51,501 nt of DNA from Microbacteriaceae bacterium 3FA27C10 (GTDB taxonomy: Bacteria > Actinomycetota > Actinomycetes > Actinomycetales > Microbacteriaceae). Location: positions 1 through 51,501 of the forward strand of contig SCNI01000028.1 in NCBI GenBank assembly GCA_005502775.1, read 5' to 3'. Of the stretch, positions 1 to 4,371 are shown piece by piece. The notes under the pieces were generated by a model, which did no database searches, was not told the origin of the DNA, and saw only the letters and a list, made by a program, of their open reading frames with translations. Within the stretch, counting starts at the first letter, position 1. Each line of letters begins with the position of its first letter. The position numbers and the translations under genes were made by a program.

Positions 1-2
1 CC

Positions 3-220
3 CCACCTCCACCCCCCACCTCGACGGAGCGCGCCGAGTACGAAGCCGAGAGCGCCGTGCTCGCCGGCACCGGCACGGCCACACCGCTGTCGCGGATCGG
101 TGGCGTCGACCGCTACGCGGCCTCGCGGGCCATCACGGCGCGCTCGGCGCCACGAAGGTCACCCTCCTGGGCGGCCCGAACACTCTGGCGGAGGGGACGG
201 AAGCCCTCGCCGCCTGCCGC
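3..220 (+). pseudogene. Decayed cell-wall-binding repeat 2 (CWB2) fragment
   Basis: Seen: one frame reads a Pro/Thr-rich stretch and then LSRIGGVDRYAASRAI, the typical start of a CWB2 repeat. A second frame, beginning near position 143, reads LGATKVTLLGGPNTLAEGTE, the typical end of the same repeat. The roughly 45 residues that normally lie between them (the FPDALS region) are absent, and the two halves are out of frame. Known: CWB2 repeats anchor secreted proteins to the wall by binding anionic polymers. Inference: this is the deleted and frameshifted 3' end of a surface-protein gene that starts outside the window. Intact CWB2 repeats occur at 40.9-41.8 kb in this window. A sequencing error could explain the frameshift but not the missing middle. 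Confidence 0.6.
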
Positions 221-279
221 TGGCCGCAGCGCGCGGCGTCCCGCGTCTCAGGACCGGTCGCGATGCGGCCCGGGTGGGC

Positions 280-291
280 TAGGCTGGGGGC
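280..291 (+). promoter_or_regulatory. -10 element for the leaderless cysteine leader ORF
   Basis: TAGGCT at 280-285 is followed by six bases and then the GTG at 292. TANNNT plus 6-7 bases plus ATG/GTG recurs in front of several genes in this window. It fits transcription starting at the first base of the start codon. No clear -35 is visible. Confidence 0.55.
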
Positions 292-321
292 GTGTTCGTG
301 AATCCCTGTTGTCGCCGCTAG
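292..321 (+). CDS. Putative cysteine-sensing leader peptide MFVNPCCRR
   Basis: A nine-codon ORF starts with GTG immediately after a -10-like TAGGCT and reads M-F-V-N-P-C-C-R-R-stop. It has no Shine-Dalgarno, which suits leaderless translation. Two adjacent Cys codons sit just before the stop. The stop lies 112 bases upstream of the cystathionine beta-synthase start. Known: in mycobacteria, leaderless upstream ORFs carrying consecutive Cys codons attenuate downstream cysteine genes according to cysteinyl-tRNA charging. Inference: the same logic here would raise cbs-metB expression when cysteine is short. The anti-Shine-Dalgarno structure that such control needs was not resolved by eye, so the mechanism is unproven. 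Confidence 0.6.
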   Translation: MFVNPCCRR

Positions 322-433
322 AGCGACCTTCTCCCTCACCAGTCGGATTCGCCACGCCCCAGCCGCCGCTCACGCAGCGCGCCGTGCGACACAGGCACGT
401 GATCGCTGCGGGCCCCAGTCAAGGACACAAGAC

Positions 434-1801
434 ATGAAGTACGCGAACAGCGTCATCGACCTCGTCGGCAACACCCCGCTCGTCAAGCTCAACAGCGTGA
501 CCGACGGCATCCAGGCCACGGTCCTCGCCAAGATCGAATACCTGAACCCCGGTGGCTCGTCGAAAGACCGCATCGCCACCAACATCATCGACGCGGCCGA
601 GCGCGAGGGCCTCTTGAAGCCCGGCGGCACGATCGTGGAGCCCACCTCGGGCAACACCGGCATCGGCCTCGCCCTCGTGGCGCAGCAGCGCGGCTACCGC
701 TGCATCTTCGTGCTGCCCGACAAGGTGGGCGAGGACAAGCGCAACGTTCTCACGGCCTACGGCGCCGAGATCGTCGTGACGCCCACCGCCGTGGCTCCCG
801 AAGACCCCGACTCCTACTACTCGGTCTCCGACCGGCTGGCGCGCGAGATCCCGGGCGCCTTCAAGCCGAACCAGTACTCCAACCCCAACGGCCCGCTCAG
901 CCACTACCAGACCACCGGCCCCGAGATCTGGCGTGACACCGAGGGCCTCATCACCCACTTCGTGGCGGGCGTCGGCACCGGCGGCACCATCAGCGGAACC
1001 GGCAAGTACCTCAAGGAGGTCTCCGACGGAGCCGTGCAGGTGATCGGCGCCGACCCCGAGGGCTCGGTCTACTCCGGCGGAACCGGCCGCCCCTACCTCG
1101 TGGAGGGCGTGGGCGAGGACTTCTGGCCCACCGCGTACGACCCCACCGTGGTCGACGAGATCATCGCCTCGACCGACGCCGAGTCGTTCGAGATGACCCG
1201 GCGGCTCGCCCGCGAAGAGGGCCTGCTGGTCGGCGGCTCGAGCGGCCTCGCCGTCTCCGTGGCCCTGAAGGCCGCCCGCGACCTCCCGGCCGACGCGGTG
1301 GTCGTGGTACTCCTCCCCGACGGCGGCCGCGGCTACCTCGGCAAGATCTTCAACGACAAATGGATGCGCTCCTACGGCTTCGCCTCCGAGAGCGAGGGGT
1401 CGACGGTGCGCGAGCTGCTCGGCGGCAAGAACGGCGGCCTTCCCGCCCTCGTGCACGTGCATCCGAGCGACACCGTTCACGACGCCATCGGCATCATGAC
1501 GGAGTACGGCGTCTCGCAGGTGCCCGTGCTCTCGGCCGAGCCGCCCGTGGTGATGGGCGAGGTGATCGGCTCGCTCGACGAGCAGACGCTGCTCGACCAG
1601 GTGTTCGGCGGCCGCGCCGCCATGACCGACAAGGTCGGCGACTTCGTCGCGCCCGCCCTGCCGCTGATCGGCATCAACGAGCCGGTGTCGGCGGCCCGCC
1701 AGGCCCTCACGACGGCGCCCGCGTTGCTCGTCTCCGACGACGGCAAGCCCGTCACCGTCATCACCCGTCAAGACCTCCTCACCTTCCTCAGCGAAGCGTG
1801 A
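434..1801 (+). CDS. cbs: Cystathionine beta-synthase
   Basis: A 455-residue PLP enzyme that joins serine (or O-acetylserine) and homocysteine into cystathionine in the cytoplasm. The N-terminal fold-type II domain shows the PLP lysine in GGSSKDR (K44) and the phosphate-gripping TSGNTG loop (71-76). Residues about 315-455 form two CBS domains, seen in VHPSDTVHDAIGIMTEYGVSQVPV and the terminal ITRQDLL region; these are usually regulatory. Length suits actinobacterial CBS rather than the shorter cysteine synthases. AAGGA eight bases before ATG supports the start. It lies behind the cysteine leader peptide and 26 bases ahead of metB, so the pair is probably an operon serving transsulfuration. Cysteine synthase activity cannot be excluded. 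Confidence 0.93.
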   Translation: MKYANSVIDLVGNTPLVKLNSVTDGIQATVLAKIEYLNPGGSSKDRIATNIIDAAEREGLLKPGGTIVEPTSGNTGIGLALVAQQRGYRCIFVLPDKVGEDKRNVLTAYGAEIVVTPTAVAPEDPDSYYSVSDRLAREIPGAFKPNQYSNPNGPLSHYQTTGPEIWRDTEGLITHFVAGVGTGGTISGTGKYLKEVSDGAVQVIGADPEGSVYSGGTGRPYLVEGVGEDFWPTAYDPTVVDEIIASTDAESFEMTRRLAREEGLLVGGSSGLAVSVALKAARDLPADAVVVVLLPDGGRGYLGKIFNDKWMRSYGFASESEGSTVRELLGGKNGGLPALVHVHPSDTVHDAIGIMTEYGVSQVPVLSAEPPVVMGEVIGSLDEQTLLDQVFGGRAAMTDKVGDFVAPALPLIGINEPVSAARQALTTAPALLVSDDGKPVTVITRQDLLTFLSEA

Positions 1802-1827
1802 CTCCCGACCTCACGAAAGACACGATC

Positions 1828-2988
1828 ATGGCTTCCAAGAAGAACGAGAGCTTCGAGACCCGCGCCATCCACGCCGGCCAGGAGTTCGACCCCACCACGG
1901 GCGCGATCATCCCGCCCGTCTACCTCACCAGCACCTTCGTGCAGGACGGCATCGGCGGCTTCCGCGGAGGCTACGAGTACGCGCGCGGCGGCAACCCGAC
2001 CCGCACCTCGCTCGAGACGCTGATCGCCTCGCTCGAGGGCGCCAAGCACGGCCTCTCCTTCGCCTCCGGCCTCGCGGCCGAGGATGCGCTGCTGCGGGCC
2101 GTGCTCGAACCGGGCGACCGCATCGTGCTCGGCAACGACGTCTACGGCGGAACCCATCGCCTGATCAATCGCATCCACGGCAAGTGGGGCGTCGAGAACG
2201 TCGTGGTCGAGATGGGCGACCTCTCCGCGGTGGCGAAGGCCGTCGCCGGCGGCAAGACCAAGCTGCTCTGGCTCGAGACCCCTTCGAACCCGCTGATGAA
2301 GATCAGCGACGTGGCCGAGCTGGCCGAGATCGGCCACGCGGCCGGCGCCCTCGTGGTGGTGGACAACACCTTCGCCTCGCCCTACCTGCAGCAGCCGCTC
2401 TCGCTGGGCGCCGATATCGTGGTGCACTCCACCACGAAGTACCTCGGCGGCCACTCCGATGTGCTCGGCGGCGCCGTGGTGCTGAACGACGACGCGCTCG
2501 AGGAGAAGGTGCGCTTTCTGCAGTTCGCCTCCGGCGGCGTCTCGGGGCCGATGGATGCGTGGCTCACCGTGCGCGGCATCAAGACCCTCGCCGTGCGCAT
2601 GGACCGGCACTCGAGCAACGCGCAGACGATCGCCGAGCACCTCGTGGGCCACCCGGCGCTCGACGCCGTCTACTACCCGGGCCTGCCCACGCATCCGGGC
2701 CACGAGCTCGCGAAGCGTCAGATGAAGTCGTTCGGCGGCATGATCTCGCTCGCTTTGAAGGGCGGACCGAAGGCGGCCCGCAAGTTCGCGGAGTCGACGC
2801 AGCTGTTCCAGCTCGCCGAGTCGCTCGGCGGGGTCGAGTCGCTCATCGGCTACCCCTCGGAGATGACCCACGCCTCCGTGAAGGGAACGCCGCTCGAGGT
2901 GCCGGAGAACGTCATCCGCCTCTCCGTGGGCATCGAAGCGGTCGACGACCTGCTCGCCGACCTCGAGCGAGCACTGCCGCGCAAGTAG
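1828..2988 (+). CDS. metB: Cystathionine gamma-synthase / gamma-lyase family PLP enzyme
   Basis: A 386-residue Cys/Met-metabolism PLP enzyme. The fold-type I signature is clear: YARGGNPTRTSLE near 51-64, the cofactor aspartate in VVVDNTFASPYLQQP (177-190), and the PLP lysine in HSTTKYLGGHSD (K204). Known: members make cystathionine from activated homoserine and cysteine, or cleave cystathionine to cysteine; sequence alone does not separate the two. Adjacency to cbs is also seen in mycobacteria, where this gene is called metB. The cysteine leader upstream would make most sense if the pair yields cysteine, so a gamma-lyase role should be kept open. The ATG at 1828 is chosen because the conserved family region starts about 10 residues later. 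Confidence 0.9.
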   Translation: MASKKNESFETRAIHAGQEFDPTTGAIIPPVYLTSTFVQDGIGGFRGGYEYARGGNPTRTSLETLIASLEGAKHGLSFASGLAAEDALLRAVLEPGDRIVLGNDVYGGTHRLINRIHGKWGVENVVVEMGDLSAVAKAVAGGKTKLLWLETPSNPLMKISDVAELAEIGHAAGALVVVDNTFASPYLQQPLSLGADIVVHSTTKYLGGHSDVLGGAVVLNDDALEEKVRFLQFASGGVSGPMDAWLTVRGIKTLAVRMDRHSSNAQTIAEHLVGHPALDAVYYPGLPTHPGHELAKRQMKSFGGMISLALKGGPKAARKFAESTQLFQLAESLGGVESLIGYPSEMTHASVKGTPLEVPENVIRLSVGIEAVDDLLADLERALPRK

Positions 2989-3117
2989 CGGAGCAGGCAT
3001 GACCACCCGCGCTCTCGGCCCTCGGGGTCTGGAGCCTGGCCGCGGGCCATCGTGCTGCTCGCCGAGGCGGTGCTCGCGCTCGCGGTGATCGGACTAGAGC
3101 TGCTCGCGCACGGCTGA
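2989..3117 (+). pseudogene. Possible remnant of a small membrane protein
   Basis: Between metB and the convergent MFS gene one frame reads WPRAIVLLAEAVLALAVIGL followed by ELLAHG and a stop at 3115-3117. This looks like a single hydrophobic helix. An ATG at 2999 opens a different frame. The arrangement would suit a frameshifted, truncated membrane-protein gene, but the stretch is short and overlaps the 3' end of the MFS gene on the other strand. Chance is a real alternative. Confidence 0.2.
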
Positions 3118-4371
3118 GTTCTGCTCGGGCGCCGGGGATTCGCCGTCCTCCGAGGGCAGCGGCTGCTGGATGCGCGCGGCGGCGATCGCCGCACGCCCCG
3201 ACGGCAATGCGATGGCGACCGTGATCACGAGCACGGTCGCGATGCCCGCGAGCACGAGCAGCAGCTGCACGCTCACGACGTCGGCCAGCGGCCCGAACAC
3301 GGTCATGCCGATGGGGGTCGCGAGCGCCATCACGATGCTCACGTAGCTGAACACGCGGCCGTGCATCTCGGGCTGCACGGTCTCCTGCACGAGCGTCATG
3401 AACGGCGTGGAGAACAGCGGAACCAGCAATCCGAACGCGAACATGAAGGCGTAGAACACCACGAGGTTCGGGCTCAGGCCGAGGCCCACGGTGAACACGG
3501 CGAAGCCGAAGGTGGACACCAGGATGAGACCGATGCGGCTGCTCTTGGCCAGCACGGTCGACACGAGCACCCCGCCGAGCAGCATGCCCGCGCTGAAGGC
3601 GAGTTCGAGAACGGTCACCATCCACACCTCGGGCCCGAAGGTGCGCGCCACCATGAGCGGGGTGATGAAGGAGGGCGCCACGGTGAGCAGGAACAGGATG
3701 GCGAAGACCACCAGCAGCCAGCGCACCACCCGATGGCCGCCGATGTAGCGCATCCCGGCGGCGAGGTCGGCGAAGTAGCCACTGGTCCTCTCCGAGACGG
3801 CGGCGAGCGTGGGCACGCGAACCACGAGCATCAGACCGATGCCGATGGCGGCCGTCACCACGTCGATGAAGAACACCGGCACGATGCCGAAGAGACCGAA
3901 CACGGCTCCGGCCGCCGCGGGGGCGAGCAGGGCCATCGCCGACTGCACCGTCTGGTACATGCCGTTCACCCGCATGAGCTGATCGGGCGGGGCGATCTGC
4001 GGGATCATCGCCTGCACCGCGGGGGACTGGAAGCCCGCACCCACCGAGCGTACGCCGACCGCGAGGAGGATGATCCAGAGCTCGGTCACCCCGCTCAGCA
4101 TCAGGAGTGCGAGAGCGAGCGTCACGATCGCGATCGTGCCGTCGGACACGATCACCAGCACCTTGCGGTTCATGCGGTCGGCGAGCGTGCCGCCGAAGAT
4201 CGACACGATGCCCTGCGGGGCGAAGGCGGCGAGGGCGTAGAGGGCCACGGCGAAGCCCGACTTGGTCTCGAAGGTCACCCACCACATCACGGCGTACTGC
4301 ACGACCATCGAGCCGAAGAGCGAGATGGTCTGGCCCGTCAGGAAGAGGCCCGCGTTGCGCTTCCAGTGCAC
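3094..4371 (-). CDS. MFS exporter (macrolide-efflux-like)
   Basis: A 425-residue membrane protein with about 12 hydrophobic segments. The N-terminal FLTGQTISLFGSMVVQYAVM and the loop GGTLADRMNRKVLV match the MFS subgroup that includes MefE-like exporters. Likely role: proton-driven export of a drug or metabolite across the cytoplasmic membrane; substrate unknown. The GTG at 4371 is preferred over an in-frame GTG at 4419 because AGAGG lies six bases before it. The longer version would also run through a palindromic operator at 4401-4423. Single gene, convergent with metB. The C-terminal tail is hydrophilic. Confidence 0.85.
   Translation of the reverse strand: MHWKRNAGLFLTGQTISLFGSMVVQYAVMWWVTFETKSGFAVALYALAAFAPQGIVSIFGGTLADRMNRKVLVIVSDGTIAIVTLALALLMLSGVTELWIILLAVGVRSVGAGFQSPAVQAMIPQIAPPDQLMRVNGMYQTVQSAMALLAPAAAGAVFGLFGIVPVFFIDVVTAAIGIGLMLVVRVPTLAAVSERTSGYFADLAAGMRYIGGHRVVRWLLVVFAILFLLTVAPSFITPLMVARTFGPEVWMVTVLELAFSAGMLLGGVLVSTVLAKSSRIGLILVSTFGFAVFTVGLGLSPNLVVFYAFMFAFGLLVPLFSTPFMTLVQETVQPEMHGRVFSYVSIVMALATPIGMTVFGPLADVVSVQLLLVLAGIATVLVITVAIALPSGRAAIAAARIQQPLPSEDGESPAPEQNSAVREQL

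Follow-up and report, generated by a model that had tools for sequence, protein, structure and literature searches.

What does a nine-codon open reading frame (ORF) with two adjacent cysteine codons beside its stop do directly ahead of a cystathionine beta-synthase gene, and does it bear on whether this gene and its partner make cysteine or consume it? The question is raised by a 51,501-nucleotide stretch of DNA from Microbacteriaceae bacterium 3FA27C10 (GCA_005502775.1, contig SCNI01000028.1), to which we refer in its full length as the window. All parts of the element lie on its + strand. A -10-like box, TAGGCT (280–285), is followed by the six-base spacer GGGGGC (286–291) and by the ORF itself (292–321), whose codons, read directly, are GTG TTC GTG AAT CCC TGT TGT CGC CGC TAG, encoding MFVNPCCRR. 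The tandem Cys codons TGT TGT (307–312), the proposed sensor, are placed two codons ahead of the leader stop. A first-pass annotation had pointed out this box, its six-base gap to a GTG, and the short ORF ahead of cbs, and its coordinates proved to be exact. Judged from the spacing of the box, the transcript most likely starts at G292 and thus with the GTG at 292–294, so that the ORF is predicted to be leaderless. The Shine-Dalgarno sequence of cbs, AAGGACAC, occupies positions 421–428, and the gene starts with the ATG at 434.

The DNA ahead of this promoter (window 1–250) contains a gene tail resembling a motif that we take to be cell-wall-binding repeat 2. It changes frame near base 140, with RIGGVDRYAASRAITAR in frame 3 and LGATKVTLLGGPNTLAEG in frame 2, which could reflect either a frameshift or an assembly error. 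At locus L013, a similar gene tail seems, by eye, to lie just upstream of the leader promoter.

The genes downstream of the leader are those of the annotated cbs–metB pair. The first (434–1801, + strand) matches the cystathionine beta-synthase model TIGR01137 with 618.9 bits (cut-off 510.25) and has Rv1077 as its best solved relative; the second (1828–2988, + strand) is of the cystathionine gamma-synthase/gamma-lyase type and matches NF005871 with 646.6 bits (cut-off 513). Their adjacency suggests co-transcription. The best solved relative of the ‘metB’ gene, 8sf4, bears both gamma-lyase and gamma-synthase names, and sequence alone therefore does not fix the direction in which this enzyme works. 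Nor is the direction decided by the MetX model, since its match in the genome stays below the cut-off and the same cut-off is reached by none of the 14 control genomes either. The sulfate pathway is more informative. A cell without sulfate reduction must take its cysteine from reduced sulfur, and a cbs and gamma-lyase pair can supply it by the established path from homocysteine through cystathionine to cysteine. In the assembly of this genome (99.88% complete, 115 contigs), we found no match to PAPS reductase (PF01507), for which 14/14 controls were positive, and none to the sulfite-reductase family NIR_SIR (PF01077), with 11/14 positive controls; hence, the cbs–metB pair probably makes cysteine rather than consuming it. 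On the choice raised by the first-pass annotation, the absence of both families favors production. Likewise, a sensor that induces the pair at cysteine shortage fits cysteine production.

To which lineage the leader belongs follows from its neighbor: the cbs genes of Herbiconiux solani and Herbiconiux moechotypicola are 90–91% identical to that of the window, which we consequently take to be from Herbiconiux (Microbacteriaceae). The ORF lists of these two loci match those of the genus loci L010 and L007. Our sample of the genus comprises 16 genomes, 15 of which have a full cbs match, while the sixteenth (G009, 88% complete) has a weak match only. A leader ending in CCRR or CCCR, with a TANNNT box exactly six bases before its GTG, is present in all of these 15. 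It has nine codons in the window and ten at the other genus loci; the frame, the Cys codons and the stop are retained, and the residues between the start and the cysteines vary (NP, NLL, NLP, IPS, IPT, NPT, NLF). Throughout the genus, the Cys codons sit one or two codons ahead of the stop. The first-pass annotation had staked its reading on the conservation of these codons among relatives, and both the tandem Cys and the promoter spacing are kept in 15/15 genomes. At the loci L004 and L005, translation of cbs probably begins 15 nt before the ATG assigned by homology and soon after AAGGACAC, which would give the protein a short N-terminal extension. A search of the own genome with the CCRR-type leader pattern TGTTGTCGTCGCTGA yielded no exact matches, two with one mismatch and 57 in total with up to two mismatches (reversed control: 20); as the site in the window differs from TGTTGTCGTCGCTGA at three positions, this blunt search could not find even that site.

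To gauge chance, we took the 250 nt ahead of cbs homologues, 210 distinct stretches in all, and searched them for ORFs with CC within the last nine residues and TANNNT 5–8 nt before the start. Fifty of the real stretches contain such an ORF; ten rounds of dinucleotide shuffling of all 210 gave none each time, and neither did the reverse strand give any. The residues found doubled in such ORFs are C (50), R (32), L (13) and S (9), with all others at zero. The distance from the box to the start of the CC ORFs peaks at 6 (33) and 7 nt (16), and a second peak at 12 (16) and 13 nt (3) is produced, in the genus, by a further GTG that lies in frame within the ORF, two codons after the first. Conservation far exceeds the chance level for the leader, its Cys codons, the spacing of the box and the link with cbs. 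Furthermore, the codons themselves are biased. TGT accounts for 91/106 Cys codons in 40 distinct leaders (TGC for 15/106) and for all 31 in the genus leaders (TGC 0), as opposed to 6/82 in 29 long high-GC3 ORFs of the window (TGC 76/82). As these control ORFs were chosen by rule, were not checked as genes and stem from one genome, the clean comparison is the one of 31:0 with 6:76. TGT may be favored for slower decoding, or for the base pairing of UGUUGU.

Outside the genus, we counted ORFs with at least two Cys among their last ten residues as leaders; since this was the search criterion, finding cysteines in them carries no independent weight, unlike the chance controls. For this survey, 249 family genomes were searched for cbs. 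Of about 150 places with the best, full-length cbs among the matches listed, 130 (30 + 100) were taken and about 20 left out, a choice made before looking. Together with ten more genus genomes, they form a set of 140 Microbacteriaceae genomes from 50 genera, restricted to high-scoring, full-length cbs and with one row per genome. A leader precedes cbs in 46 of them; 63 have a box directly before cbs, and 31 have neither, a count that includes one locus (L122, G036) with a mis-set upstream stretch. No genome shows both states (0/140), which are mutually exclusive in this sample. At the level of genera, leaders occur in 14/50 and leaderless cbs in 25/50, and one genus has both, in different species. 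A broader set of 220 loci, with some duplicates between collections, gives 58 leaders, 88 boxes (TANNNT) directly before cbs and again no locus with both. In the 63 genomes, TANNNT is found 5–9 nt ahead of the cbs start, with alternative in-frame starts up to 30 nt away counted, and the cbs mRNA is therefore probably leaderless there. In the larger set, 22 starts have the box at a distance of nine, possibly a sign that the 5' UTR there is very short.

The 53 leaders collected across the set encode peptides of 8–14 residues, with 49–160 nt (median 98) between the leader stop and cbs. Beyond the family, yet within the same order, a leader is present at 2/39 loci (both of family f14) and a leaderless cbs at 5/39 (all of family f6); Promicromonospora, with a leader, is among the named loci outside the family. 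By contrast, 26 loci counted as Nocardia, Rhodococcus, Gordonia and close kin have neither leader nor leaderless cbs. Cys leaders were also sought at other cysteine genes, and were found before cysK at 0/14 genus loci and, with a box spacing of 6–7 nt, in 0/16 cysH neighborhoods of 10–11 kb on both strands; thus, no wider cysteine regulon was seen. PF01507 is matched in only 49 of the 249 sampled Microbacteriaceae genomes, so that most of them appear to lack sulfate assimilation by the PAPS route. The leader does not track the loss of PAPS reductase: PF01507 is present in 12/36 tested leader genomes as against 10/63 leaderless-cbs genomes, and in 2/31 genomes with neither state.

Given this pattern, the ORF at 292–321 is probably a leaderless attenuator that senses Cys-tRNA and controls cbs together with the gene next to it. 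Comparative genomics, both within the genus (15/15) and across the family (46/140), supports the interpretation as a cysteine-responsive leaderless leader peptide. Transcription would start at the leader GTG, and the ribosome would initiate on the bare 5' end. As long as Cys-tRNA is sufficient, it would pass the two Cys codons, terminate and leave, and cbs expression would be low. When Cys-tRNA is short, it would stall on the tandem UGU codons beside the stop, which would lead to the expression of cbs–metB and to the conversion of homocysteine, derived from methionine, into cysteine. The transcript start, the stalling, the cysteine response and the direction of flux are inferred. Two familiar types of regulator were considered and rejected. 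A known riboswitch is not supported by the Rfam models, which have no matches at E ≤ 1 in window 1–1500. A classical attenuator with an intrinsic terminator is not supported either, as a GC-rich hairpin with a U run was not found between leader and gene; the + strand of window 1–4000 lacks intrinsic terminators, and its three terminator-like sites, at 3448–3890, are all on the - strand.

How, then, would a stalled ribosome be felt by cbs? We give about an even chance to a release of the Shine-Dalgarno sequence, which would otherwise be paired with the 5' end of the leader or with its Cys codons. In an RNAalifold consensus of 14 aligned genus leaders, GUGUUC and two more bases are paired with the Shine-Dalgarno region of cbs, and a hairpin forms at the leader stop. 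In the window, the predicted helix would connect GUGUUC (292–297) as its 5' arm with GGACAC (423–428) as its 3' arm, at a level not above shuffles, and the stop hairpin would join 311–315 with 323–327; the latter is weaker than in genus relatives with an 8-bp form. This 8-bp form is present at 9/15 genus loci and at L111, and in L009 its letters are changed on both sides; outside the genus, L111 apart, the stop hairpin is not a shared form. Of the covarying hairpins that the first-pass annotation had proposed to look for, the consensus structure was found, but the covariation is weak (covariation term 0.01; 1/31 pairs changed on both sides). At one genus locus (L009, G010), the leader region is only 82 nt long and is devoid of the middle hairpin domain, with the Cys leader, the stop hairpin and the Shine-Dalgarno sequence retained, which suggests that the middle domain is dispensable.

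Individual loci offer suggestive exchanges between the 5' end and the Shine-Dalgarno region: AUGUUC is matched by GGACAU in L111 and GUGAUC by GAUCAU in L057. In L009, GUGGG could pair with CCCAC just downstream of the Shine-Dalgarno sequence of that locus, and the Cys codons of L072, L080 and L150, which belong to other genera, are themselves predicted partners of the Shine-Dalgarno sequence. The statistics are mixed. Whole genus leaders are more stable than their dinucleotide shuffles (mean z -2.15, n = 15); in other genera (n = 38), the mean z is -1.05 for the whole leader and -0.20, no better than shuffles, for the leader plus 40 nt. Binding of a leader to its own Shine-Dalgarno region exceeds that in swapped pairs (permutation p 0.0074, 33 representatives), with a mean z of -0.5 against shuffled Shine-Dalgarno regions and -0.3 against shuffled leaders, and values below -1 in 9/33. 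For the 15 genus leaders, the pairing is not above that of shuffled spacers (p 0.81) or shuffled leaders (p 0.76), and for 29 other leaders it is marginal in both comparisons (p 0.07 and 0.07). Masking the footprint of a stalled ribosome releases the Shine-Dalgarno sequence better than in shuffled spacers outside the genus only (p 0.046); compared with shuffled leaders, there is no gain in the genus or outside it (p 0.66 and 0.09). A complement of at least 5 bp to the 5' end exists in 26/53 leaders, 15 of them from the genus, and in 35% of non-cognate pairs. As a family-wide statistic, Shine-Dalgarno sequestration is weak: the RNAalifold consensus and the swapped pairs speak for it, shuffles and covariation do not. 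As a lock in which the 5' end sequesters the cbs Shine-Dalgarno sequence, it is plausible.

The foremost rival keeps the same Cys sensor and changes its output to Rho-dependent termination, in the manner of tnaC. Here, the release of the ribosome would expose a C-rich rut site after the leader stop, whereas a stalled ribosome would hide the start of this site or keep RNA polymerase coupled. The window has such a rut-like stretch, C-rich and G-poor, directly after the leader stop (322–371; 50% C, 20% G), and 52/53 leaders have more C than G in the 50 nt that follow the stop (mean 46% C, 26% G). For comparison, the 60 nt upstream of the promoters have 36% C and 34% G; C-rich, G-poor 20-mers are found in 36/53 leaders versus 9/53 stretches upstream of promoters, and 30 leader-free stretches upstream of cbs genes with neither state are nearer to balance (36% C, 31% G; C above G in 21/30). 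The position of the genus Cys codons so close to the stop and the lack of intrinsic terminators on the + strand of 1–4000 also speak for Rho. It has been proposed for such leaders before, in a paper that in the relevant part terms the evidence weak (Seliverstov et al., 2005; PMC1262725), and an Mbox of Mycobacterium tuberculosis is described as joining translational control and Rho (PMC12810186). On the other hand, the C-richness may reflect only the avoidance of structure, and the genus leaders are highly structured, which is unfavorable to Rho loading. We assign a modest likelihood, below that of Shine-Dalgarno release, to this output, in which the stalled ribosome would prevent Rho-dependent termination at the C-rich stretch; both outputs may act together. 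The chance that the output is something else again is smaller still.

An effect through general coupling or reinitiation only, in which the translated ORF would sense cysteine and lower the number of ribosomes that reach cbs with neither structure nor Rho involved, is improbable. The leader would indeed be translated in cis ahead of cbs, but the distance from its stop to cbs is long for reinitiation, cbs has its own Shine-Dalgarno sequence, and tandem rare Cys codons would be needless. Even less credible is an active nine-residue peptide that binds a metal or thiol and is no attenuator: although the CC motif is kept across the genus, the other residues and the length vary, the TGT bias acts at the level of the codon and not of the residue, and the search placed the ORF in cis ahead of cbs, with none at the cysK or cysH loci. 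An ORF that arose between promoter and cbs by chance, for which only its length of nine codons speaks, can be dismissed almost with certainty in light of its absence from shuffled sets, the reverse strand and all 16 cysH neighborhoods, its conservation in the genus and its presence in 14/50 genera.

The preferred reading, a cysteine-sensing leaderless attenuator, raises the issue of how the leader relates to the leaderless cbs genes of the same family. In a quick search, we built a tree from 84 cbs proteins, namely those of the family loci with full coding sequence and of L080; the 100 fetched family loci, most named loci from other families, the duplicates L031 and L032, and L122 are not part of it. 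On this tree, the leader label changes at least six times, with four of the changes forced by starred branches. With Promicromonospora as the root, the leader-bearing Agromyces, Leifsonia flava, three Cryobacterium and Humibacter branch early, and the leader-bearing Herbiconiux and G040 adjoin Subtercola and Agreia with their leaderless cbs. Tentatively, we envisage for Microbacteriaceae one leaderless promoter with two interchangeable designs: it could either lead straight into cbs, with no attenuation, or into a cysteine sensor of 8–14 codons about 100 nt before a cbs led by a Shine-Dalgarno sequence. Given at least four label changes on starred branches, the cysteine control of reverse transsulfuration may be lost or regained through a short deletion or insertion, and in Herbiconiux, GUGUUC, with which both the message and the leader would begin, may be the lock on the Shine-Dalgarno sequence. 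If so, the occupancy of the 5' end by a ribosome would itself be the switch there.

A gene of only nine codons would thereby probably govern how cysteine is formed from methionine, in a family with few matches to PAPS reductase. With one promoter, two Cys codons and one reporter, it offers a conserved and simple system for the study of the way in which a stall on a leaderless ORF is passed on, and genera that have the sensor can be compared with close kin that lack it.

Among known systems, tnaC of Escherichia coli stalls on its nascent peptide with free tryptophan, not on hungry codons. The likeness to our leader is that a stall beside the stop could keep Rho from loading onto C-rich RNA, and the C-rich, G-poor, rut-like RNA of a tnaC-like Rho attenuator is indeed present after the stop, as the 36/53 leaders and the window illustrate; the difference lies in the trigger, which in our proposal is hungry Cys codons. 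The tna operon is also named in the work that comes closest to ours in its target gene (PMC1262725). There, a Cys-codon leader was predicted before the cbs of Bifidobacterium longum (Seliverstov et al., 2005), with a short ORF and Cys codons near its stop directly upstream of cbs. The Microbacteriaceae leader consequently joins a known kind of element, and the expectation that its use for transsulfuration would be new was only partly right. The B. longum candidate is, however, from another family and, as far as that description goes, a prediction from one genome, with no mention of a leaderless promoter, of conservation across the family or of a tie to leaderless cbs genes (PMC1262725). The main text of a 2024 paper on sulfur metabolism in B. 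longum contains neither ‘leader peptide’ nor ‘cbs’ (PMC11540073).

Polycysteine-encoding leaderless short ORFs of mycobacteria were reportedly tested by Canestrari et al. in 2020. Our leader resembles them in the contiguous Cys codons near the stop, present in the window and at 15/15 genus loci, and in being the predicted first ORF of a cysteine-metabolism unit, with cbs and the gamma-synthase/lyase gene next. A start codon at the 5' end is predicted for it from the box, which lies six bases before the start at 15/15 genus loci and 6–7 nt before it at most others. As far as they are described (PMC9094748, PMC9031893, PMC13236596), the mycobacterial ORFs are likewise leaderless, stand at the head of a cysteine-metabolism unit and are proposed to act by pausing on their Cys codons; ours is distinguished by its place before cbs–metB, its length of 8–14 residues and its occurrence in Microbacteriaceae, and a structure that masks the Shine-Dalgarno sequence is only putative here. 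Cys-rich leaderless ORFs have also been reported upstream of cysA2, Rv0485 and nirA in mycobacteria (Shell et al., 2015; PMC4633059); these are similar in being leaderless, Cys-enriched and placed before sulfur or other genes, but have other targets, and the words cbs and metB are absent from the main text of that report. Streptomyces lividans, also an actinobacterium, has leaderless attenuators for Leu, Trp, Ile, Thr, Ala and Met, and the table of eight given for them has none before cbs (PMC8079986). Among the matches listed in open-licence PMC full text, we recognized no description of a Microbacteriaceae cbs leader, which is not proof of its absence in print. Compared with these systems, the novelty is a well-supported and well-conserved case in Microbacteriaceae, in which the relation between the leader and leaderless cbs and the putative output step are of most interest.
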